This document shows positions 3,910 to 52,749 of a stretch of 64,000 nt of DNA, one piece after another (within the stretch, counting starts at the first letter, position 1; each line of letters starts with the position of its first letter). Origin of the DNA: Phycisphaerales bacterium (GTDB lineage Bacteria > Planctomycetota > Phycisphaerae > Phycisphaerales > UBA1924); contig DASPKU010000015.1 in NCBI GenBank assembly GCA_035627955.1, forward strand, positions 186,001-250,000, given 5' to 3'. The notes under the pieces were generated by a model. The model saw only the letters and a list, made by a program, of their open reading frames with translations, had not been told where the DNA came from and made no database searches. The translations under genes and the position numbers were made by a program.

Positions 3910-5100
3910 ATGAAGCCTGTCGCCCTTGTCATTGCGTCTGCTTGCCTCGTTGGAGCAGGTTGCACACACCAGATGCAAATGCCCGACGAGCAGTTGGTAT
4001 GGCAGGTGCTGCCGGGTCCACCCGACACCGACGCGGGTGCAGCGGGTCGGTTTCAGAAGGTCTGTGACTTTGAGGTGCCGCGGGTTGATGGTTCTGAATA
4101 CAGAATCGAGACCTGGGGTGCCGCGGTGGGCACGCGCTTCATGGGCGCGCCACTCGAACGCTGGACGCCTGGCGATGGAGTGAACCACAGGCAACCAGGC
4201 GTTGGGCTGTGGGACGTGAGCAGCGGTCGACTACTGGCATCGGTGCTCCCACCCGCCAGCCTCCCGGAGCAGATCGCTAGTAATCCGGGTTTCGCCGGCG
4301 TGAGCCATGACGGAATGCTGCTCGCGACCTATCGCGATCAGCACTTCCAGATCTGGAATCTTCGCACTGGCACAATGCTGAGCACCTTCAGGTTCGGGTT
4401 CCCGAGCATGTCTTACGAGACGTACGAGTACGAAGGGCGCACCTGCTACAACGTGTTTGGGTCACCCGAAAGGCCTGGCCCGGGCGAGTTTTCCGAAGAC
4501 GGCCTGCGGTTCACCGCATGGATCACGAGCTGGAACTCGTGGGGTGTGTGGGATGTGACCTCGGGCCGCTACCTGAGAACAACTGATCGACCTGCACCGG
4601 ATGCCAGGAATCCTTGGGAGTCCGACTGCGGCTGGGTCGAGCAAGACCGCCTGCTCCATACCGGGAAAGGCACGCGGGCACTGTTCAAGGACGGTGAGTT
4701 CGTGTCCCCTGGGGCCCTGCCGTTTTTCAACGCTGATTGCAGCTACGTCGCGCTGAGGCTTCAGCCTCAAGCCAGCATGCTCGACTTCGATCGCGATGTG
4801 ACGCCCTCGCACATCCGAGTCTTCGACACGGCCACAGGACAGCTCCAGAACTGGTCGCACGTTGGCCGCGTACCCGGCTACTCGGAACAGATTCAGTTCA
4901 TCGGGACGAAAACAGACTTGCTGCTCACGAGCAGCGATGCCACGGCGGTCATGGCTCGGATCGTCGATGTGAGCACTGGGCGTGAAACAGCGCGCCGCAA
5001 GCTCGGCAACCGCGGGTTTGTGGAACCTATCGGGGCAGAGCTCCTCCTCGCCGATACGGACGCTGGCACGTCGCTCTGGCGGATCGATCCGAACTGGTGA
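3910..5100 (+). CDS. Exported lipoprotein with beta-propeller-like repeats
   Basis: 396 residues starting at ATG 3910. The start is chosen because it opens a lipoprotein signal (MKPVALVIASACLVGAGC) with a lipobox LVGAGC. The mature part has repeated blades of the type GLWDVSSGRLLAS, QIWNLRTGTMLSTF, GVWDVTSGRYLRT, RVFDTATGQLQNW and RIVDVSTGRETAR, which resemble WD40/PQQ-type propeller blades. GC content and codon choice are slightly more relaxed than in flanking genes. Function unknown; presumably anchored in a membrane facing the periplasm. It converges on thpR with a 5-base gap. Confidence 0.8.
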   Translation: MKPVALVIASACLVGAGCTHQMQMPDEQLVWQVLPGPPDTDAGAAGRFQKVCDFEVPRVDGSEYRIETWGAAVGTRFMGAPLERWTPGDGVNHRQPGVGLWDVSSGRLLASVLPPASLPEQIASNPGFAGVSHDGMLLATYRDQHFQIWNLRTGTMLSTFRFGFPSMSYETYEYEGRTCYNVFGSPERPGPGEFSEDGLRFTAWITSWNSWGVWDVTSGRYLRTTDRPAPDARNPWESDCGWVEQDRLLHTGKGTRALFKDGEFVSPGALPFFNADCSYVALRLQPQASMLDFDRDVTPSHIRVFDTATGQLQNWSHVGRVPGYSEQIQFIGTKTDLLLTSSDATAVMARIVDVSTGRETARRKLGNRGFVEPIGAELLLADTDAGTSLWRIDPNW

Positions 5101-8750: not shown

Positions 8751-9731
8751 ATGGACCGTGGCATCATTCTGGGCGTGGCGTTGGGCGTGGCGGCAGCGGT
8801 TGGGTTTGCGGGCGATGCGCTGGCGGGCGGGTCGTTCCCCGGCAACCCGCTGGACATGTACGTGACCAGCGACACGGCCAACGAGGTCTACCAGTACGAG
8901 CGGAGCAGCCCGTGGAGCTACGTGCCCGGGGCGTACTCGGGCATTGCCAAGCCGCAGGTGTTCAGCAACCAGTCGCAGTTCAGCCCCTCGATGGCGATGT
9001 ACCTGGGGTGCGTGGCGGGGCCGAACCAGAACTTCTGGATCGGCGGGTTCAGCGGGCTGACGCAGATCCACTCGACCACGGGCGCGAACGTGAGCAGCAT
9101 GGGCGGTGGCACGCGGATCGGGCCGGCGACGGCGCCCAACGGGAACGTGGTGGTGGGCGGGCCCACGGGTGTGGAGGAGTACGACTCCACCAGCGGCGCG
9201 TTCGTCTGCACCGTGAATGGCTACGGCGACGGTTACAACATGTTCGCGTTCAGCGGGAACACGATGTACACCACGCAGTGGTCGGGCGGGAGCTCGTCGA
9301 CGGTGAAGGTGTTCGACTTTGTCACGGGGTCACAGATCGGGGCCGACATCAGTGTGCCCTTCGCGGCCCAGAAGCTGGCGATCGGTCCGGACGGGGCGCT
9401 GTACGCGTCGGCCCTGTACACCAGCCCCGCGTTCGAGGGCGTCTACCGGTGGAACGGGTCGGCGTGGGGCGTGTTCGCCAGCTCGCTGGCGCAGAGCGGC
9501 ACGGGGCCGCACGGCTTCGCGTGGGACCCGGTGAGCCTGGACCTGTACATGGCGTTCCAGACCGGCGAGATCCATCGCTACGACGGGCTGACGGGGGCGT
9601 ACCTCAACACCATCGACACGGTGCAGACGAAGCTGACGGACATCTTCTTCAAGCGCACGGTGCCGACGCCGGGTGCGGTGGGGCTGCTGTGCGCGGGCGG
9701 GCTGCTGGTGGGCTCGCGCCGGCGCCGGTGA
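8751..9731 (+). CDS. Exported propeller-like protein with PEP-CTERM-type sorting tail
   Basis: 326 residues. ATG 8751 follows AGGAG (8738-8742) at good spacing. The signal peptide is MDRGIILGVALGVAAAVGFA. The body has NHL/SMP-like propeller blades (LDMYVTSDTANEVYQYE, GPNQNFWIGGFSGLTQI, IGPDGALYASALY, DPVSLDLYMAFQTGEIHRY). The C-terminus VPTPGAVGLLCAGGLLVGSR followed by Arg residues has the PEP-CTERM layout: Pro motif, hydrophobic helix, basic tail. Such tails are removed by an exosortase in other bacteria; no exosortase is in this window. Function unknown, likely surface or extracellular matrix. Confidence 0.85.
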   Translation: MDRGIILGVALGVAAAVGFAGDALAGGSFPGNPLDMYVTSDTANEVYQYERSSPWSYVPGAYSGIAKPQVFSNQSQFSPSMAMYLGCVAGPNQNFWIGGFSGLTQIHSTTGANVSSMGGGTRIGPATAPNGNVVVGGPTGVEEYDSTSGAFVCTVNGYGDGYNMFAFSGNTMYTTQWSGGSSSTVKVFDFVTGSQIGADISVPFAAQKLAIGPDGALYASALYTSPAFEGVYRWNGSAWGVFASSLAQSGTGPHGFAWDPVSLDLYMAFQTGEIHRYDGLTGAYLNTIDTVQTKLTDIFFKRTVPTPGAVGLLCAGGLLVGSRRRR

Positions 9732-9839: not shown

Positions 9840-9884
9840 CCAACCCGGGACTTCGCCCAGAGCGGCTCAGTCCCGGCGTCGTGG
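9840..9884. repeat. Family 6 palindrome, right half only
   Basis: 45 bases (starting CCAACCCGGGACTTCGC, ending CCCGGCGTCGTGG) match the right halves of the elements at 35163-35277 and 38876-39024 almost exactly. The matching left arm is absent here. It lies between the convergent PEP-CTERM gene and the MlaE-type gene. No sigma-54 promoter follows, unlike at the two flagellar copies. Confidence 0.8.
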
Positions 9885-9916
9885 GGAAGCGGCTCAGTCG
9901 CGGCATCGGGGGAAAC

Positions 9917-10780
9917 TCAGCTGAAGACCGAGTCGACGCCGCCGTGGATCATGAAGTCGATGTCGTTGAGGACCTTGGCCAGGACCAGCGACATCAGGAT
10001 GATGGTGAGGAAGCTGGTGACGAAGGACTCGGTGGTGGCCTCGCCCACGCCCTCGGCGCCGGGGCGGCAGGAGAAGCCCTTGTAGCAGGAGATGAGGCCG
10101 ATACCGGCGCCGAAGAACACGGCCTTGATGAGGCCGCTGAAGACGTCGTAGGTGTTGACGATGTTGGCGCTGTTGCGCCAGTAGAGCGTGGCGTCGGTGG
10201 TGTAGAACTGGGTGGTGATGAGCCAGCCGCCGAGCACGCCGCAGAGGTTGCTGACGACGGTGAGCGGTGGGATCATCACGACGCACGCGACGAAGCGCGG
10301 CACGACGAGCACCTTGATGGGGTCGCTGCCCATGGCGCGCATGGCGTCGAGCTGCTCGGTGACCTTCATGGAGCCCAGCTCGGCGGTGAGGGAGCAGCCG
10401 ACGCGCCCCGCGAGCATGACGGCGGCGAGCACAGGGCCGATCTGCTTGACCACCGAGAGGTTGATGACGCCGCCAAGGCGGGCTTCCTGGCCGATGGACT
10501 GGAACTGGCGGTAGCCCTCGAAGGCGAGGATCATGCCGATGAAGCCGCCGGTGATGGCGAGGACGGGGATAGAGGTTGTGCCGACGAAGTAGAGCTGACG
10601 CCAGAGGCGGTCGCGCCGGTTCCAGGTCCGCACGGCGGAGAGGCCGCGGAAGGTGTGGAGCATGAAGCGGGTGAACTGGCCGAAGGCGACGACGGCGTGG
10701 AGGATGCCGTGCCCGAGGCGTGCAACGCCGGAGACGGGCGTCATCCAGTTGGGTGTGGGCACGCGGTCGGGGTTCGACAT
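9917..10780 (-). CDS. mlaE: MlaE/YrbE-family ABC transporter permease
   Basis: 287 residues with about five membrane segments. The MlaE core is present: GFIGMILAFEGYRQFQSIGQ, VKQIGPVLAAVMLAGRVGCS, LTAELGSMKVTEQLDAMRAM and the following DPIKVLVVPRF. In Gram-negative bacteria this permease works with an MlaF ATPase and an MCE (MlaD) protein to move phospholipids between outer and inner membranes. Neither partner is adjacent here, so they must lie elsewhere or leftward partners are missing. The gene reads in the same direction as the OmpA-domain gene but is separated from it by repeat-rich DNA. Confidence 0.88.
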   Translation of the reverse strand: MSNPDRVPTPNWMTPVSGVARLGHGILHAVVAFGQFTRFMLHTFRGLSAVRTWNRRDRLWRQLYFVGTTSIPVLAITGGFIGMILAFEGYRQFQSIGQEARLGGVINLSVVKQIGPVLAAVMLAGRVGCSLTAELGSMKVTEQLDAMRAMGSDPIKVLVVPRFVACVVMIPPLTVVSNLCGVLGGWLITTQFYTTDATLYWRNSANIVNTYDVFSGLIKAVFFGAGIGLISCYKGFSCRPGAEGVGEATTESFVTSFLTIILMSLVLAKVLNDIDFMIHGGVDSVFS

Positions 10781-10935: not shown

Positions 10936-10943
10936 ACAATCAC

Positions 10944-10970
10944 ACCGAGATGAGGACATCTCGGTGGCAC
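10944..10970. repeat. Family 4 hairpin (ACCGAGATG/CATCTCGGT), copy 1
   Basis: A perfect 9-bp stem, 10944-10952 with 10957-10965, closing an AGGA loop and flanked by GGCAC. Other copies are at 14717-14743, inside a coding gene, and 52694-52720, inverted and with a compensating change in the stem. Confidence 0.85.
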
Positions 10971-10975
10971 GGCAC

Positions 10976-13675: not shown

Positions 13676-16276
13676 ATGAGCGATAAAGCGCGCCGGAGCA
13701 ATGCGTGGGACGAGCGGCACCTGAGGGGGCCGTGGCTGTGGCCGGTGAAGGCGGTCGTGAAGGCGCTGAGCTCGATCACGCTGGCGGTGATTCTGCTGGT
13801 GTTCGTGGTGCTGTACGGGATTTCGGCGAGCGTGCCGGTCGGGCTGCTGGCGCTCGCGCCTACGTGGCTGGTGTATGCACTGGTGTTCGTGCTGATCGTG
13901 GGCGGGATGGGGGCGCTGGGTGCGTGGGGTGTGGCGAGGGCGCTGGGCGGGGCTGGGCGGGGGACGCGGTTTGTCGCTGCTTTCGCGGCCATGCTGGTGC
14001 TGGCGGGCGTGGGCGTGTGGGTGTGGGTGACGAACGTGTGGCCGCGGCTGCGGTATGACGAGGTGACGCACACCGGGCTGCGGTTCTTCGCGGGCTTCGT
14101 GGAGGCGAACAGGGCGATCACGCTGCGGCGGCTGCCGGGCGTAGAGATGACGGAGCTGGAGTACTACGCCGCGTGGCCGCTACGGTGGGCGCTGCTGCTG
14201 TTCGTGCTGAACATGGTGGTGGCGACGGTGCGGCGGATCGAGTTCACGTTCAAGAACATCGGCGTGCTGACGGTGCACACGGGCATCGTGATCATGGCGC
14301 TGGGGAGCGTGTACTACGCGGGGCTGAAGCAGGAGGGGGACACGCTGCTGCTGGCGGGGCAGCCGGACCCGCACACGGGGCGGCCCAGCCCCGGGCCGAT
14401 CCAGGACGTGTTCTACGACAACACGCGGGTGGCGCTGTTCGTGAACCCCAAGCGGATGGGGTGGGAGCAGCGGCTCGTCAATGGGCTGCCGCGGTACAAC
14501 GACTACAACCTGGGGGCGGGGCGGGGCGAGCTGGCCAGCGGCGTGGCGCGCTGGAAGAAGGACGCGGTGCCGGAGTCGCTGCCGGCGCTGGCGATCGAGC
14601 CGGAGGCGACGCCCACGACGATGGTGGATAGCGACGTGTCGCTGAAGATCGTGGGGTACGCGTCGTACGCGGAGGAGGAGAGCGACTACGCGCGGGTGGA
14701 GGTGCCCCAGGGGAGTACCGAGATGAAGACATCTCGGTGGCACGACGGATCAAAGTCGCACGAGCCGCTGCGGTTCGTGTTCCTGCACTCGCAGCTGGAG
14801 GATGAACAGGGGCGGGTGTCGGATGAGCCGGTGGTGTCGTTCGTGATGCCGCCCTTGAGCGCGAAGGACCGCGAGAGCGGCAACGACGTGTTCTCGCTGG
14901 AGTACACCTTTGGCGAATCGGGCGGGATGCCGGAATCGCGCTGGCGTGACCTGTCGGAGCCGCTGCCGGCGGGCACGCAGCACGCGCTGGTAATCGAGGT
15001 GCCGGGGAAGGACGGGGCGCCCTCGCACCGCGAGGTGGTGCCGGTCGCGAACGGCTCGGCCTTCGATGTCGGCAAGACCGGGTACCGCGTCGCGGTGAAG
15101 GAGCTGCTGCCCACCCCGCCGTTCCCGATCATCACCGAGGGGTACAAGGGGGCGGACAGTTCGGTGGCGGTGGTGACGGTGACGACGCCCACGGGCGAGA
15201 GTTTCGAGCGGTACGTGTACCACCGGTTCCCCGCGATCAACCAGGACATGCTGAGCGAGCGGCGGGCCAACGGGCAGCCGGTGCGGCGGGACGCGGACCC
15301 CGCGATCCGTATGGGGCTGATCGAGTGCGACCGCATCTACGTGTACATCGATGAGAGCGGGGGGAAGACGCGGGCGATCGTGCGGCAGAAGGGCGGCCTT
15401 GTAAAAGTCACCGAGTCGCTGGCGCCCGGGCAGCGGCTGGACATGGTGGAGAAGGTGCAGCTGCGGATCGGCGAGAAGTGGGACGCGGCCCGCAGGGTCG
15501 AGCTGCCCAAGGTAGTGCCGCCAGAGAAGCGCGAGAAGGAGTCGGTGGGCACGCACGACCGCGCGATGGTGGGCGTGGAAGTCGCGGCCAGCATCGGGGG
15601 GCGGCCCTGGTCGCAGGTGCAGTGGTTGCCGTTCACGCGGTACATGAGCCTGATGCAGGGCGGCGAGCGCGAGGTGGTGCTTCCGGACGGGCGGGTGTAC
15701 GGGCTTGCGATCGGGCGGCTGCAGCGGCCGCTGCCGGGCTTTGGCCTGCGGCTGCTGGACTTTGAGATGATCGCGTACGACCACCGCGGGGCGCCGCGGG
15801 ATTACCAGTCAATCGTGCGGGTGATGCCGGCGGGCGGGTCGGGGTTCGAGGTGTTCGACCACGTGACCAAGCTGAACGAGCCGCTGCAGGCGCCGTTCCA
15901 CTGGGACGACGGCAAGAGCTTCTTCGCGAACCTGCCGGGGCGGCTGGTGGCGGGCATGAGCCCCTTCCAGTTCAAGTTCAGCCAGAGCGGGTGGGACCAG
16001 CAGGGGTGGCAGCGGACGCAGAAGATGGCGGATGCGGGACAGCTGCCGCGGGCGTTCGCGAGCTTCACGATTCTGCACGTGGGCAACAACCCCGGCATCC
16101 ACCTGATTGCGCTTGGCGGAATCATGATGGGGGTTGGGATCCCGTGGGCGTTCTATGTGAAGCCGTGGCTGGTGCGGCGGGAGAAGCGGCGGATTCAGGA
16201 GATGGTGGCGGCGGGGACGTGGCGGAAGCCGGAAGCCGGAAAGCGGAAACCGGAAGTGGAGACGGCGGGCGTCTAG
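13676..16276 (+). CDS. resB: ResB-like cytochrome c biogenesis protein
   Basis: 866 residues. Membrane segments lie near residues 35-55, 60-80, 95-120, 172-190 and 200-222, with a final one near residue 815 (IHLIALGGIMMGVGIPWAFY), the ResB layout with a large periplasmic domain between. In System II cytochrome c maturation ResB pairs with CcsA (next gene, 28 bases on) to carry and ligate haem to apocytochromes. It is larger than typical ResB (450-600). Residues 348-356 (TEMKTSRWH) are encoded by a copy of the family 4 hairpin. The C-terminal tail WRKPEAGKRKPEV is encoded by family 3 repeat DNA. Confidence 0.82.
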   Translation: MSDKARRSNAWDERHLRGPWLWPVKAVVKALSSITLAVILLVFVVLYGISASVPVGLLALAPTWLVYALVFVLIVGGMGALGAWGVARALGGAGRGTRFVAAFAAMLVLAGVGVWVWVTNVWPRLRYDEVTHTGLRFFAGFVEANRAITLRRLPGVEMTELEYYAAWPLRWALLLFVLNMVVATVRRIEFTFKNIGVLTVHTGIVIMALGSVYYAGLKQEGDTLLLAGQPDPHTGRPSPGPIQDVFYDNTRVALFVNPKRMGWEQRLVNGLPRYNDYNLGAGRGELASGVARWKKDAVPESLPALAIEPEATPTTMVDSDVSLKIVGYASYAEEESDYARVEVPQGSTEMKTSRWHDGSKSHEPLRFVFLHSQLEDEQGRVSDEPVVSFVMPPLSAKDRESGNDVFSLEYTFGESGGMPESRWRDLSEPLPAGTQHALVIEVPGKDGAPSHREVVPVANGSAFDVGKTGYRVAVKELLPTPPFPIITEGYKGADSSVAVVTVTTPTGESFERYVYHRFPAINQDMLSERRANGQPVRRDADPAIRMGLIECDRIYVYIDESGGKTRAIVRQKGGLVKVTESLAPGQRLDMVEKVQLRIGEKWDAARRVELPKVVPPEKREKESVGTHDRAMVGVEVAASIGGRPWSQVQWLPFTRYMSLMQGGEREVVLPDGRVYGLAIGRLQRPLPGFGLRLLDFEMIAYDHRGAPRDYQSIVRVMPAGGSGFEVFDHVTKLNEPLQAPFHWDDGKSFFANLPGRLVAGMSPFQFKFSQSGWDQQGWQRTQKMADAGQLPRAFASFTILHVGNNPGIHLIALGGIMMGVGIPWAFYVKPWLVRREKRRIQEMVAAGTWRKPEAGKRKPEVETAGV
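14717..14743. repeat. Family 4 hairpin inside resB, copy 2
   Basis: ACCGAGATG (14717-14725) and CATCTCGGT (14730-14738) form a perfect 9-bp stem around AAGA, followed by GGCAC as in copy 1. Its length keeps the reading frame open through the ResB-like gene. Confidence 0.85.
16225..16263. repeat. Family 3 short tandem repeat at the resB C-terminus
   Basis: Degenerate GGAAGCCGGAAAGCGGAAACC units encode the last conserved-looking but compositionally odd residues of the ResB-like protein. Sequence resembles 8529-8582 and 33976-34015. Confidence 0.7.
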
Positions 16277-16280
16277 AGCT

Positions 16281-16381
16281 AAATGGCAAAGGGCAAATTG
16301 GCAAATGGCAAATCAGAGGAAGACAGCGTGGCTGGTGATGGCGTTCGTATTTGCCCTTTGCCATTTGCCCTTTGCGAATTT
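16281..16381. repeat. Dispersed palindrome, family 2 (GGCAAAGGGCAAAT...ATTTGCCCTTTGCC), copy 1
   Basis: Left arm 16281-16315 and right arm 16349-16381 are near reverse complements. The left arm contains the ccsA start codon and the right arm encodes the hydrophobic core of its signal peptide. Other copies: 21597-21692, 36091-36167, 41145-41226. Confidence 0.88.
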
Positions 16382-22568: not shown

Positions 22569-24039
22569 CTTGTGGGCCGCGAAACGTGAGCAGGCACGTC
22601 AGGGCGTGATGCCCCTGGCGATGCGCATGCGCCCGCGCACGATGGACGAGTACGTGGGGCAGCAGCACATCCTCGGCCCGGGGAAGCTGCTGCGGCGGAT
22701 GCTGACCGCCGACGCGGTGACGTCGCTCATCTTCCACGGGCCGCCGGGCACGGGGAAGACCACGCTGGCGGAGCTGATCGCCAAGCAGACGAAGCGGGCT
22801 TTTGTGCGCGAGAACGCCAGCAGCGTGGGCGTGAAGCGCATCCGCGAGATCATCGACGAGGCCGCGAACCGGCTGGAGCTCGAGGGCAAGCGGACGATCC
22901 TGTTCCTGGACGAGATCCACCGCTTCACCAAGAGCCAACAGGACGTGCTGCTGGGGGACGTCGAACGCGGCCTGATCACGCTGATCGGGGCGACCACGGA
23001 GAACCCGCTGTTCGCGGTGAACTCGGCGCTGGTCTCTCGCAGCACGCTGTTCCGGCTCGAGCCCCTGAGCGAGGCGGACATCGTGAGCGCCCTGCGGCGG
23101 GCCATCGCCGACAAGGAGCGCGGCTACGGCGCGCTCAACCTCGAGGTCTCCGACGAGGCCCTGCACGTGTGGGCGACGAAGAGCGACGGGGATGCGCGGC
23201 GGGCGCTCACGGCCTTGGAGGTGGCGGTGCTGTCTTCGCTCGATGGCACTGTCTTTGGTGGCACCGGTCTCCCGACCGGTGTGCGTTTGGAGCAAGGTGG
23301 AACGAAGAGCACCGGTCAGGAGACCGGTGCCACCCCAGACGGTGCCACCAAAGGCAGGATCACCATCGACGGCCAGGTCGCCGAGGACTCCATCCAGCAA
23401 AAAGCCGCCGTCTACCACGGCACCGGCGACGAGCACTACGACGTCATCAGCGCGATGATCAAGAGCGTGCGCGGCAGCGACCCCGACGCGGCGGTGTTCT
23501 GGATCGCCCGCATGCTCGACGCGGGGGAGGACCCGCGCTTCATCGCGCGGCGGCTGGCAATCCTCGCCAGCGAGGACATCGGCAACGCCGACCCCCGCGG
23601 GATCATGGTGGCCGCGGCGTGCTGGGAGCTGGTGGAGCGGATTGGGATGCCCGAGGCGCGGATCACACTGTCGCAGTGCGCGATCTACTTGGCGTTGGCG
23701 CCGAAGAGCAACGCCAGCTACATGGCCATCGAGATGGCGATGGAGGATGTGCGCGAGGGCCGCACCGTCCCTGTCCCCGTCTACCTCAAGGACAAGAACG
23801 TGCGGGCCGCGGCGGAGATGTCGGCGGGCGGCCGCGAAGGTTTAGAAAGAGCCGGCACCGCGGGCGTGCAGGGCGGCGCCAGCGAGGGCTACAAGTACGC
23901 CCACGACGAAGCCGGCGGCCTGGGCACGCAGGATTACCTCGGCGTGGACAAGCGGTACTACATCCCGACGGATCGGGGGGCGGAGAAGTTGCTGGGGCAG
24001 TACCTGGAGGAGGCGCGGAGGGCCCGGGGGAAAGAGTGA
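22561..24039 (+). CDS. rarA: Replication-associated recombination protein A (AAA+ ATPase)
   Basis: 492 residues. It acts at stalled replication forks. The AAA+ core is clear: Walker A FHGPPGTGKTTLAELIA (near residue 57), NASSVGVKRIREII, Walker B TILFLDEIHRF, sensor LIGATTENP, then SDGDARRALTALEVA. The MgsA/RarA C-terminal tetramerisation region has DVISAMIKSVRGSDPDAA, FIARRLAILASEDIGNADPR, YKYAHDEAGG and YYIPTDRGAE. The GTG start lies in an 8-bp tandem repeat. Residues 228-263 (FGGTGLPTGVRLEQGGTKST...) are an insertion relative to E. coli RarA and are encoded by a family 5 palindrome. Confidence 0.93.
   Translation: MADLWAAKREQARQGVMPLAMRMRPRTMDEYVGQQHILGPGKLLRRMLTADAVTSLIFHGPPGTGKTTLAELIAKQTKRAFVRENASSVGVKRIREIIDEAANRLELEGKRTILFLDEIHRFTKSQQDVLLGDVERGLITLIGATTENPLFAVNSALVSRSTLFRLEPLSEADIVSALRRAIADKERGYGALNLEVSDEALHVWATKSDGDARRALTALEVAVLSSLDGTVFGGTGLPTGVRLEQGGTKSTGQETGATPDGATKGRITIDGQVAEDSIQQKAAVYHGTGDEHYDVISAMIKSVRGSDPDAAVFWIARMLDAGEDPRFIARRLAILASEDIGNADPRGIMVAAACWELVERIGMPEARITLSQCAIYLALAPKSNASYMAIEMAMEDVREGRTVPVPVYLKDKNVRAAAEMSAGGREGLERAGTAGVQGGASEGYKYAHDEAGGLGTQDYLGVDKRYYIPTDRGAEKLLGQYLEEARRARGKE
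23244..23350. repeat. Family 5 palindrome inside rarA
   Basis: Left arm 23244-23283 (GGCACTGTCTTTGGTGGCAC, then CGGTCTCC) and right arm 23310-23350 (CACCGGTCAGGAGACCGGTG, then CCACC) are reverse complements over most of their length. The insertion keeps the frame. A shorter relative lies in the RluA-type gene at 33464-33497. Confidence 0.85.
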
Positions 24040-35034: not shown

Positions 35035-35162
35035 GAGGTCCCCAGGCTAGCAACCCCCCGGGATGGGGGCACAATGCCCGCACCGGTGGGAAGGGGAGTG
35101 TAGGAGAGGAGCGGGGCGCAGGGGTTGCGCGGGGGCGCAGAGGGCCTGCGCGAACATGGGCC

Positions 35163-35277
35163 ACACGACGCCGGGACTGAGGGCTTTGCCGAAGTCCCGG
35201 TTTGAGCGCGACGGCTGTCGTCGCAGTCGCCGCCAACCCGGGACTTCGCCCAGAGCGGCTCAGTCCCGGCGTCGTGT
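35163..35277. repeat. Family 6 palindrome upstream of flgF
   Basis: Perfect 19-bp outer arms, ACACGACGCCGGGACTGAG (35163-35181) and its complement (35259-35277). Inner arms GAAGTCCCGG (35191-35200) and CCGGGACTTC (35238-35247). The same element, with its spacing to a sigma-54-type promoter, recurs before flgI. Confidence 0.9.
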
Positions 35278-35286
35278 GCTTCGCAC

Positions 35287-35303
35287 TGGCACGCCCTTCG
35301 CGA
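35287..35303 (+). promoter_or_regulatory. Sigma-54-type promoter of flgF
   Basis: TGGCACG-N4-TCGCGA: GG at 35288-35289 and GC at 35300-35301 are 10 bases apart, as required. It departs from the TTGC consensus by one base. The flgF start is 19 bases downstream of the GC. Sigma-54 control of flagellar middle genes is known in other Gram-negative bacteria; use here is inferred. Confidence 0.7.
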
Positions 35304-35319: not shown

Positions 35320-36090
35320 ATGTCGTACGGGCTGAACATCTCCGCCAGCGGGCTCATGACCTCGATCTACGCGCAGGAGGTGTGGGCCAACAACCTCGCG
35401 AACATGGACACGCCGGGGTTCAAGCCGGACATCCCGGTTCCGGCGGTGCGGCAGGACGTGCGGCGGGAGGATGGGGTGGGTTATCTCCCCAGCAACACCC
35501 TGCTCGAGCGGCTGGGCGGCGGGACGCTGATGCACCGCAACCGCGTCGACTTCTCGCAGGGGGCGATCAAGAGCGGCGGGCCGCTCGACCTCGCGATCGA
35601 GGGCTCGGGGTTCTTCGTGGTGCGTGATACCGAGGACCGCAAGGGCGACATGGTGCGGCTGACGCGCGACGGGCGGTTTACACGGGCGGCCGACGGCTCG
35701 CTGGTGACCGCGACGGGCGGGATGCCGGTGCTCGACGTCAACAAGCGGCCGGTGCGGCTGCCCCCGGGGTCGGTGCAGGTTGGCAGCGACGGCACGGTGA
35801 CGCAGGGCGGGCGGGTGGTGGCGCGGATCAAGGTCATCGACGTGCCCAGCCTCGATCTGCTCCAGAAGGCGGACAAGAGCCAGTTCGTGGCCGACGCCAA
35901 CGCGCTCTCGAGCCAGCGGCCGGCGCGGGGCATCGTGAAGCAGCACGCGTACGAGGACTCCGCGGCCGACGAGGTGCAGGCGCTGATGCGGATGTCCTCC
36001 GCCGCGCGGGATGTCGAATGGAACGCGGGCATGATCCAGGCTCACGACCGGATCATGGAGCGGGCGATCGGGATGGGGCGGCTGGCTTGA
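35320..36090 (+). CDS. flgF: Flagellar hook-basal body protein, FlgF/FlgG family (proximal rod)
   Basis: 256 residues. N-terminal rod motif SASGLMTSIYAQEVWANNLA and NMDTPGFKP; central SGGPLDLAIEGSGFFVV and TRDGRFTRAADGSLVTATGG; C-terminal SSAARDVEWNAGMIQAHDRI, the coiled-coil partner of the N-terminus. These are the blocks of rod and hook proteins exported by the flagellar type III apparatus. flgG follows, so FlgF is the natural assignment, although FlgF and FlgG are hard to separate by sequence. Start ATG 35320; the AUG follows a sigma-54-type promoter closely, leaving a short leader. Confidence 0.9.
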   Translation: MSYGLNISASGLMTSIYAQEVWANNLANMDTPGFKPDIPVPAVRQDVRREDGVGYLPSNTLLERLGGGTLMHRNRVDFSQGAIKSGGPLDLAIEGSGFFVVRDTEDRKGDMVRLTRDGRFTRAADGSLVTATGGMPVLDVNKRPVRLPPGSVQVGSDGTVTQGGRVVARIKVIDVPSLDLLQKADKSQFVADANALSSQRPARGIVKQHAYEDSAADEVQALMRMSSAARDVEWNAGMIQAHDRIMERAIGMGRLA

Positions 36091-36167
36091 GCGAAATAGC
36101 AAATGAGCAAATTGGCAAAGGGCAAATAAAGGCACGACTCTGATTTGCTCTTTGCGAATTTGCCCTT
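36091..36167. repeat. Dispersed palindrome, family 2, copy 3 (flgF-flgG gap)
   Basis: Left arm 36091-36131 (GCAAATGAGCAAATTGGCAA and on) and right arm 36141-36167 (GATTTGCTCTTTGCGAATTT and on) are near reverse complements. The hairpin ends just before the flgG ribosome site GAGGA. Confidence 0.85.
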
Positions 36168-38875: not shown

Positions 38876-39024
38876 CGACGCCGGGACTGAGGAGTCCTCG
38901 ACGAAGTCCCGGGTTGGGCGCGACGTCCGTTTCACGGTCACAACTGCTCACCCCGTGTCCCACTCGCGCACATCGGTCGCCGCCAACCCGGGACTTCGCC
39001 CAGAGCGGCTCAGTCCCGGCGTCG
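38876..39024. repeat. Family 6 palindrome upstream of flgI
   Basis: Perfect 16-bp outer arms (CGACGCCGGGACTGAG at 38876-38891; complement at 39009-39024) and perfect 15-bp inner arms (38903-38917 GAAGTCCCGGGTTGG; 38983-38997). Same element as 35163-35277. Confidence 0.92.
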
Positions 39025-39031
39025 CACGAGG

Positions 39032-39048
39032 TGGCACGCCCCTTGCGA
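39032..39048 (+). promoter_or_regulatory. Sigma-54-type promoter of flgI
   Basis: TGGCACG-N4-TTGCGA, with GG at 39033-39034 and GC at 39045-39046, 10 bases apart. Nearly perfect consensus. It begins 8 bases after the family 6 arm; the flgI ATG is 13 bases after the GC. Confidence 0.82.
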
Positions 39049-39058
39049 TCCGCACGGC

Positions 39059-40126
39059 ATGCGAATCATCGCGTGCCTTGCGACGCTGGTGCTGACTCTG
39101 GCCGCGAATGCGACCACGGTCAAGGAGCTGGTCCGGATCAAGGGCCAGGGGGAGTCGATCCTCCGCGGCTACGGCCTGGTCGTCGGCCTGCCCGGCACCG
39201 GCGACTCGGGCAAGGAGCTGGCGGTCTCCCGACCGCTCGCCGAGCTGCTCAAGCAGAGCGGCAACCAGCTCGGCACGCCCAAGGAGCTCGCGAGTTCCAA
39301 GTCCGTGGCGCTGGTGTCCGTCTCGGTCACCATCCCCCCCGCGGGCGCCCGCGCGGACGATACCTTCGACGTGCAGGTCTCGGCACTGCTGAACGCCTCC
39401 AGCCTTAAGGGCGGCGAGCTGTACCTGTGCGCCCTGCTGGGCCCGGTGCCGGACAAGGACGGCAAGATCTGGGCCTTCGCCCAGGGGCTCGTCGACCTCC
39501 AGGACCCCTCGATCACCACCAACGGCAAGGTGCGCAAAGGCGCGCGGATCATCGAGGACATCCTGATGCCCCCGGTGACGGACACCTTCGAGCTGATCAT
39601 CGACACGCCGTACGCGGGCTGGGCGGCCGCGAGCCAGATCGCGATCGCGATCAACGCCAAGGCACAGCCGCAGGGGCCCAAGGTGGCGGTGGTCGTCGAT
39701 GAGCGGACCATCCGCGTGACGGTGCCCGAGGCCGAGCGCTCCGACCGCGCGGCCTTCGTCGCCGACGTTCTCTCCGCCGAAGTCAACCAGCAGCTCCTGG
39801 ACATCCCGGCGCAGGTGATCTGCAACCAGCGCACGGGCTCGATCATCATCACGGGAGACGTCGAGATCAGCCCTGTCGCGATCACGCACAAGGACCTGAC
39901 CATCACCACGACGGTGCCGGCTCCGCAGCCCTCGGTTGTGAACCCGGTGGTTACGCGGGAGCGGTGGGCGCCGATCGCCCCGCAGGCCAGGCCCAGCGAG
40001 ATGGCCAAGCTCGCGGACTTGATCCGCGCGTTCAAACAGCTGGATATCCCGGTGCAGGAGCAGATCAACATCCTGCAGATGCTGCACAAGACGGGGAAGC
40101 TGAACGCGAAGCTCGTTGTTGATTGA
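39059..40126 (+). CDS. flgI: Flagellar P-ring protein FlgI
   Basis: 355 residues with a short signal peptide (MRIIACLATLVLTLAANA). FlgI hallmarks: VKELVRIKGQGESILRGYGL, VVGLPGTGDSGKE, SVTIPPAGARADDTFDVQVS, then LLNASSLKGGELYLCALLGP, and near the C-terminus DIPAQVICNQRTGSIIITGD followed by VEISPVAITHKDLTIT. It polymerises in the periplasm around the distal rod. The end (LNAKLVVD) follows the usual LKxxGAL-like helix. It heads a second flagellar transcription unit behind its own sigma-54-type promoter. Confidence 0.95.
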   Translation: MRIIACLATLVLTLAANATTVKELVRIKGQGESILRGYGLVVGLPGTGDSGKELAVSRPLAELLKQSGNQLGTPKELASSKSVALVSVSVTIPPAGARADDTFDVQVSALLNASSLKGGELYLCALLGPVPDKDGKIWAFAQGLVDLQDPSITTNGKVRKGARIIEDILMPPVTDTFELIIDTPYAGWAAASQIAIAINAKAQPQGPKVAVVVDERTIRVTVPEAERSDRAAFVADVLSAEVNQQLLDIPAQVICNQRTGSIIITGDVEISPVAITHKDLTITTTVPAPQPSVVNPVVTRERWAPIAPQARPSEMAKLADLIRAFKQLDIPVQEQINILQMLHKTGKLNAKLVVD

Positions 40127-40183: not shown

Positions 40184-40597
40184 GTGGGAATGGAGCGGAT
40201 CGGGATGCCAGGACTGGTGAGCGGGTCCGTGATGGACCCGACCTTGCTGCGCCCGCAGTCTCGGCTGCTCGATGAGCAAGCGGGGTTCGCGGGGGTGATG
40301 GCGCAGGCTCGCGGGGGAGATGAGGGCACGCCCGAGCAGCGGGCGCGCACCGCGGCCGAGCAGCTCGTCTCCACCGCGCTGGTGCAGCCCATCTTCAAGC
40401 GGCTGCGCGAGAGCAACAACGCCGCGGCCCCGTTCGGCCCCAACCAGGCGGAACGGATGTTCGGCTCGATGCTCGACGCCCGTCACGCAGAGCGGATGGT
40501 GTCCTCGCAACGCTGGGGGCTGGTGGATCAGTTGGCACGCCGCATGCTGACGAAGGCTGGAGTGATGCCCACGCCCGCGATTGAGGTTCAGGGATGA
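40184..40597 (+). CDS. flgJ: Rod-binding protein (FlgJ N-terminal domain)
   Basis: 137 residues matching only the rod-capping half of FlgJ: AAEQLVSTALVQPIFKRLRE, NNAAAPFGPNQAERMFGSML, HAERMVSSQRWGLVDQLARR. There is no peptidoglycan hydrolase domain, a common arrangement outside gammaproteobacteria; a separate muramidase must open the wall. Start GTG 40184 is 6 bases after GGAGG (40173-40177), which lies in a repeat-like CACGGAGACACGG context; ATG 40190 is possible. It overlaps flgN by 4 bases. Confidence 0.82.
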   Translation: MGMERIGMPGLVSGSVMDPTLLRPQSRLLDEQAGFAGVMAQARGGDEGTPEQRARTAAEQLVSTALVQPIFKRLRESNNAAAPFGPNQAERMFGSMLDARHAERMVSSQRWGLVDQLARRMLTKAGVMPTPAIEVQG

Positions 40598-41144: not shown

Positions 41145-41226
41145 AACAGCAAACGAGCAAATTCGCAAAGGGCAGATGAAGACAGCGCTTCCGATTTGCC
41201 CTTTGCCATTTGAACCTTTGCCCTTT
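41145..41226. repeat. Dispersed palindrome, family 2, copy 4 (flgN-flgK gap)
   Basis: Left arm 41145-41180 (AACAGCAAACGAGCAAATTC and on) and right arm 41191-41226 (GATTTGCCCTTTGCCATTTG and on) face each other. The right arm ends four bases before the flgK ATG and leaves no Shine-Dalgarno sequence. Confidence 0.85.
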
Positions 41227-52684: not shown

Positions 52685-52693
52685 AGCGCTCTC

Positions 52694-52720
52694 GTGCCAT
52701 CGAGATGTCCTCATCTCGAT
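52694..52720. repeat. Family 4 hairpin, copy 3 (inverted)
   Basis: ATCGAGATG-TCCT-CATCTCGAT, a perfect 9-bp stem in the opposite orientation to copies 1 and 2, preceded by GTGCC. The stem differs from them by a paired G-to-A/C-to-T change, so the fold is conserved while sequence drifts. Confidence 0.85.
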
Positions 52721-52749
52721 GCTCTCCTGCCACAACAACTGATTCACGA

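Follow-up and report, generated by a model that had tools for sequence, protein, structure and literature searches.

The long palindrome upstream of flgF is, with a probability that we put at about 0.9, composed of two tail-to-tail units of a dispersed REP-type repeat; at both flgF and flgI such a pair has come to lie a short distance 5' of a sigma-54 promoter older than itself. What had looked like a new flagellar regulatory element can thereby be set aside, and two simpler facts take its place. The first is that flgF and flgI seem to be under sigma-54 control throughout this planctomycete family; the second is that a REP-type family is present in the genome, with related repeats in Gemmataceae, Pirellulaceae and Phycisphaerae. 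How such repeats spread is a question to which REP-type families lacking a linked transposase are relevant. Unless a contig is named, positions are those of the window, the whole stretch of 64,000 nucleotides that was analysed.

The palindromes upstream of flgF and flgI

The outer arms of the flgF-side palindrome (35162-35181 and 35259-35278) are 20 bp long and 100% complementary and enclose two hairpins; the inner arms (35190-35215 and 35223-35248) are 26 nt long and 81% complementary. The earlier note, which had described perfect outer arms and inner arms before flgF, was right about the palindrome, except that it gave the outer arms as 19 bp. The fold of the 125-nt strand lies 10 s.d. below dinucleotide shuffles (z = -10.3). 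The left repeat unit (35166-35200, minus strand) carries on its outer side CGACG, the complement of a CGTCG tag, together with a hairpin (35171-35200) that has a short upper stem-loop. It is followed by a spacer of 37 nt between the two hairpins (35201-35237), the ends of which are themselves complementary (GCGCGAC / GTCGCCGC), and by the right unit (35238-35274, plus strand), which consists of CCGGGACTTCGCCCAGAGCGGCTCAGTCCCGG (35238-35269) and the CGTCG tag. The gene flgF, coding for a flagellar basal-body rod protein (Pfam PF00460, PF22692), occupies 35320-36090 on the plus strand. The -24/-12 element reported 3' of the right arm is present, 8 bases from the 20-bp arm and not 10.

A similar pair precedes flgI (39059-40126, plus strand), the gene for the P-ring protein (Pfam PF02119). 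Its left unit (38876-38912, minus strand; hairpin 38881-38912, a GTCGAGGACTCC variant) begins 24 nt past the flgH stop codon, the spacer (38913-38987) is 75 nt long, and the right unit (38988-39024, plus strand) is made up of a hairpin (38988-39019) and the CGTCG tag. A stretch of 49 nt around this right unit is identical to the flgF-side right unit. The claim that the same composite occurs before flgI thus needs some modification: a similar pair and a sigma-54-type element are found there, but the upper stem-loop of the left hairpin is unlike that at flgF, the spacer is 75 nt instead of 37 nt, and the distance from the CGTCG tag to the TGG box is 7 nt before flgI and 12 nt before flgF. In computed folds both pairs are able to form one hairpin.

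A dispersed repeat with many copies

Each palindrome consists of two units, inverted with respect to each other, of the form [GCCAAY]CCGGGACTTC-(variable stem-loop)-TCAGTCCCGG[CGTCG]. The unit is a hairpin of about 32 nt in which an 8-bp CCGGGACT/AGTCCCGG stem is followed by a conserved internal loop, 2x2 TC/TC or, on the opposite strand, GA/GA, and then by a variable upper stem-loop; it is flanked by the conserved CGTCG tag on one side and by GCCAAY on the other. A strict pattern for the repeat gave 52 exact matches in the 4.26 Mb genome and none for the reversed control. When up to 2 mismatches were allowed some 63 hairpins were found, forming about 52 elements, 41 of them single and 11 paired. 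All 11 pairs within 100 bp have the units in the order minus-plus, tail-to-tail with the tags outward, and 18-76 nt between the hairpins. Among 28 distinct variants the two halves of the upper stem form on average 3.18 pairs, compared to 1.96 for reshuffled halves, and none of 5000 shuffles was as high. The 32-nt hairpin falls within the 20-40 bp of the palindromic REP unit and has the many copies expected of REP repeats, while the inverted doublets, with their constant relative orientation and ability to fold into one hairpin, are as described for REPINs.

The window holds a third copy far from the flagellar genes. It is a single unit with its tag (9845-9881, plus strand; hairpin 9845-9876) between the convergent genes 8751-9731 (plus strand) and 9917-10780 (minus strand, mlaE), and it is followed by a partial tandem duplicate of 27 nt (9888-9914). 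Such a 27-nt partial duplicate (AGCGGCTCAGTCCCGGCGTCG...) is seen on the tag side of several single copies, for example at 9861-9914 in the window and at 235778-235826 of contig C11.

Rfam gave no match for the repeat. A U-run after the hairpin is absent in the flanks of the approximately 63 copies, which read CGTCG at one end of the hairpin and RTTGGC at the opposite end, and an intrinsic terminator was therefore rejected as a description of the unit.

Placement of the copies

Gene boundaries were taken from a home-made codon-usage model trained on the window and are approximate; by this gene model 45 of the 52 elements are intergenic. For 35 of these 45 the closest gene boundary is a 3' end (p = 0.0002), and 18 elements lie between convergent genes as against 4 between divergent genes (p = 0.004 compared to other intergenic regions). 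Single copies between tandem genes turn the CGTCG end toward the stop codon in 14 of 20 cases, which is not significant (p = 0.12). The copies thus have the placement of REP repeats, which are extragenic and found next to the 3' ends of genes or in the gaps separating convergent or tandem ones. The flgI-side copy, just past the end of flgH, fits this placement, and the flgF-side copy is one of the four divergent cases.

Out of about 52 elements, the two flagellar ones alone are accompanied, within 150 bp, by a sigma-54-like site with a score of 14 or more. The genome-wide count thus shows a common palindrome with no bias to flagellar promoters, the outcome which the earlier note had named as refuting its view that the palindrome is linked to such promoters rather than random. 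It should be noted that two of the 11 pairs lie in the same flagellar cluster, at most 12 bp from sigma-54 boxes, and that this was noticed after the fact; we regard it as a mild coincidence, with a chance of about 0.05 guessed from rough counts.

The sigma-54-type promoters

The sigma-54-type element of flgF, TGGCACGCCCTTCGC (35287-35301, plus strand), is located 33 bp 5' of the flgF start and reads TGGCACG-CCCT-TCGC, so that its -12 part is TCGC and not TTGC as first written. The element of flgI, TGGCACGCCCCTTGC (39032-39046, plus strand), is a perfect TGGCACG-CCCC-TTGC 27 bp 5' of the flgI start. A third element, TGGCACGCCGCATGC (40533-40547, plus strand), precedes flgN without any palindrome and serves as an internal control; likewise, a gene which by eye was named fliN-like (C6:19231) has a sigma-54-like site without the repeat. 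The order of genes in the flagellar cluster is flgF, flgG, flgA, flgH, flgI, a rod-binding protein gene, flgN, flgK and a flagellin-like gene (flgL), 3' of which lie fliW, csrA and two flagellin genes. Genes for RpoN and for sigma-54 activators are present in the genome, and two of the activators are, as judged by eye, full receiver-AAA+-HTH-like proteins.

The earlier note had proposed to look for the palindrome before sigma-54 flagellar genes of related genomes. Among same-family relatives, with 260 bp upstream scanned so that some sites are farther from the start codon, a -24/-12-like site was found upstream of flgF in 24 of 29 and upstream of flgI in 24 of 29, whereas shuffled sequences gave means of 1.4 and 1.2, respectively, with a maximum of 5. 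The repeat pair was absent upstream of both genes in all the relatives compared (29 with flgF, 29 with flgI). Many of the relatives' flgF sites are at roughly equal distance from the start codon and some of them also end in TCGC. A 9-mer, CGAAGCCCC, seen 5' of flgF in two relatives was dismissed as a chance half-match, the other half of the repeat not being found there. Since the relatives have sites before flgF and flgI and no repeat pair, the two predicted promoters are ancestral and older than the palindrome. With a TGGCACG-N4-TTGC-type element conserved 5' of the orthologues and RpoN encoded in the genome they resemble known sigma-54 flagellar promoters, which have consensus -24/-12 elements; the difference from the composite first proposed is that the promoter elements are separate from the palindrome. 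The sigma-54 pattern as such gave no informative enrichment genome-wide (79 matches with at most 1 mismatch, compared to 86 when the pattern was reversed), and one of its five exact matches (C19:106755) overlaps the tail GGTGGCACG of another repeat.

Possible models for the palindrome

Two models make the palindrome part of flagellar control. In one of them it is an upstream enhancer which binds the sigma-54 activator of the flagellar regulon. The palindrome does stand directly 5' of two sigma-54-type promoters in a genome encoding RpoN and sigma-54 activators, but an activator site should be present at the promoters of the regulon and absent elsewhere, and this is not what is found: within 150 bp of some 50 other elements there is no strong sigma-54-like site, these elements lie mostly at the 3' ends of unrelated genes, flgN and the fliN-like gene have their sites without a palindrome, and so have the flgF and flgI promoters of the relatives. 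The distance is also unusual. Sigma-54 enhancers are usually found some 80-150 bp upstream, and the palindrome is 7-12 bp from the -24 box. We consider this model very improbable. In the other model both flagellar units received a promoter or enhancer along with a mobile hairpin. The repeat is indeed dispersed and of a mobile type, and a real sigma-54-type promoter adjoins both copies, so this part of the earlier proposal can be kept; the carriage of a promoter cannot, as the other copies are without the TGGCACG-N4-TTGC element, the gap to the box differs (7 and 12 nt), and the relatives have the promoter where the repeat is absent, which contradicts the model and makes it the most improbable one discussed here. 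A functional fusion of palindrome and promoter is not supported.

The repeat could instead act chiefly as RNA, its hairpin being transcribed at gene 3' ends, where it would serve as a factor-dependent terminator or stabilize mRNA, and being kept where it insulates neighbours such as flgH from flgI. The bias toward 3' ends and convergent genes, the orientation of the 14 single copies facing a stop codon (not significant), the covarying upper stem with its conserved GA/GA internal loop, and the start of the flgI pair shortly after flgH all agree with this. On the other hand, the missing U-run means that it is not a standard intrinsic terminator, selection against insertions into promoters predicts an equal bias, the flgF copy lies between divergent genes, and Rfam has no match; as the main function we find it doubtful. 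Such a role is compatible with a REP-type origin, and an RNA role at gene ends may be a by-product of which insertions persist. A narrower form of our preferred explanation, that the repeat is a REPIN in the strict sense, mobilized as by a RAYT through one of the Y1 transposases of the genome, is a tentative possibility. It is favoured by the short spacers of the inverted doublets, by the covariation and internal loop of the hairpins, and by nine PF01797 genes, three of which have a class-3-like Y----Q motif; against it, no Y1 gene is flanked by the repeat, those examined have other hairpins, and the GTAG-type foot is absent. Unlikely, finally, is a Planctomycetota-wide REP-type family without a transposase of its own, recognized via the conserved GA/GA loop below a free upper stem and spreading sporadically between distant planctomycetes, which would also be a transcribed 3'-end RNA structure and an insulator before the sigma-54 promoters at flgH/flgI and flgF.

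The explanation which we prefer is that a REP-type repeat has multiplied in this genome, its copies settling between genes and mostly beside gene 3' ends, and that two pairs happened to land upstream of the already existing sigma-54 promoters of flgF and flgI. The linkage is read as two insertions because the gap between tag and box differs, most copies have no promoter, and the promoters of the relatives have no repeat. The copies may have spread by (trans-)transposition of folded single-stranded DNA with a Y1-type enzyme acting in trans. Any effect of the pairs at flgF and flgI would be at most incidental, for example a block of read-through from flgH or a displacement of upstream sites.

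Known REP-type systems and the transposase

The repeat shares with the REP, BIME and REPIN sequences (Bertels and Rainey, 2011; PMC3116915) the short hairpin units, the intergenic position, the tens of copies, and the occurrence of singles and of inverted doublets with a fixed relative orientation, the doublets being able to form a single long hairpin. It differs in that no linked RAYT is found, that there is no GTAG foot, and that most elements are single (41 as against 11 paired). One strand has the foot GACG and the opposite strand CAAY, and the GTAG-tagged class, with GT[AG]G 5' of the stem foot, was rejected. The CGTC super-family (CGTC-1 to 4) was considered for the CGTCG tag and also rejected, the polarity being opposite and the stem (CCGGGACT) another one. 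In that super-family the tag reportedly stands 5' of the stem. The CGTC-tagged REPs of Di Nocera et al. (2013; PMC3733652) nevertheless have much in common with the repeat: CGTC beside the stem, a basal stem of 8 bp, inverted dimers with spacers of 20-100 bp and complementary ends, a reported location next to the 3' ends of genes and in the gaps separating convergent ones, and no dedicated transposase. By comparison with them CGTC is here 3' of the stem (read from the opposite strand, GACG is the 5' foot), the first stem bases are CCGGG and not AT, the opposite tail is GCCAAY and not CCA, and an internal loop and variable upper stem make a longer structured loop in place of a loop of 4-5 nt. 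Planctomycetes are not among the phyla named for CGTC repeats in the results of that study (PMC3733652). The structures associated with class 3 TnpA-Y1 in Planctomycetes and Acidobacteria (PMC6006769) agree with the repeat in phylum, in being atypical REP-like structures of high copy number, and in the Y----Q motif of three proteins of this genome; they were rejected as its class, the described foot being CnGA where ours is GACG, and no class 3 gene being flanked by the repeat. We conclude that the repeat is a lineage-amplified REP-type family close to, but outside, the GTAG- and CGTC-tagged super-families.

None of the nine PF01797 (Y1 transposase) genes is flanked by this repeat in the assembled genome, of which about 4% may be missing; a cognate RAYT flanked by the same repeat, as in REPINs, is thus not found, and the strict RAYT link is unproven. 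Where Y1 genes do have flanking hairpins these differ from the repeat at flgF and flgI. The three genes with the class-3-like Y----Q motif are at C17:22235, C2:108718 and C8:9653 (loci L116, L117 and L067), and the one on C17 is flanked by two copies of the hairpin ATGGCCGCGACTGAGCGGCCAT in direct orientation. Another REP-like association is seen in locus L115, where a Y1 transposase gene (approximately 4400-5060; C3:77522) lies between CACGATCA..TGATCGTG-GCAC hairpins.

Occurrence in other genomes

Among 150 genomes of the family the strict pattern matched in only two others, with one copy each; in one of these (L118) it is a full pair of the same design with compensating stem changes (CCGGGGCTTCG..CTCAGCCCCGG). 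A looser pattern gave 110 stretches in about 85,000 species genomes. Among the matches listed most are in a few Planctomycetota assemblies, namely a Gemmataceae, two groundwater planctomycetes, a Pirellulaceae and several Phycisphaerae, and many of these stretches hold close inverted pairs; the few scattered single matches outside those assemblies may be due to chance. No gene similar to the nine Y1 transposases was found in the 110 foreign stretches, and none of the nine flagellar proteins compared from this cluster had a match in 117 foreign repeat loci, in stretches of at most 8 kb each. The nearest relatives show only about 50-65% protein identity, and for this reason an empty site cannot be defined at the nucleotide level.

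Other repeats in the window

A second and commoner palindromic repeat, CACCGAGATG-N4-CATCTCGGTG-GCAC, occurs at 10943-10971, 52693-52721 and 14716-14743 and has, with at most 3 mismatches, 183 matches in the genome, some places being counted on both strands, and none in the reversed control. The tail of this repeat, GGTGGCACG, mimics the -24 box of sigma-54 promoters and can mislead promoter scans. Short A-rich micro-repeats (GCAAATTGGCAAA..., inverse TTTGCCCTTTGCCATTTG) are found before several genes including flgG and flgK (16273-16324, 36102-36161 and 41152-41212), and another long inverted repeat with 38-nt arms, 89% complementary, and GGTGGCACCGGTC..GACCGGTG motifs is located at 23244-23347.
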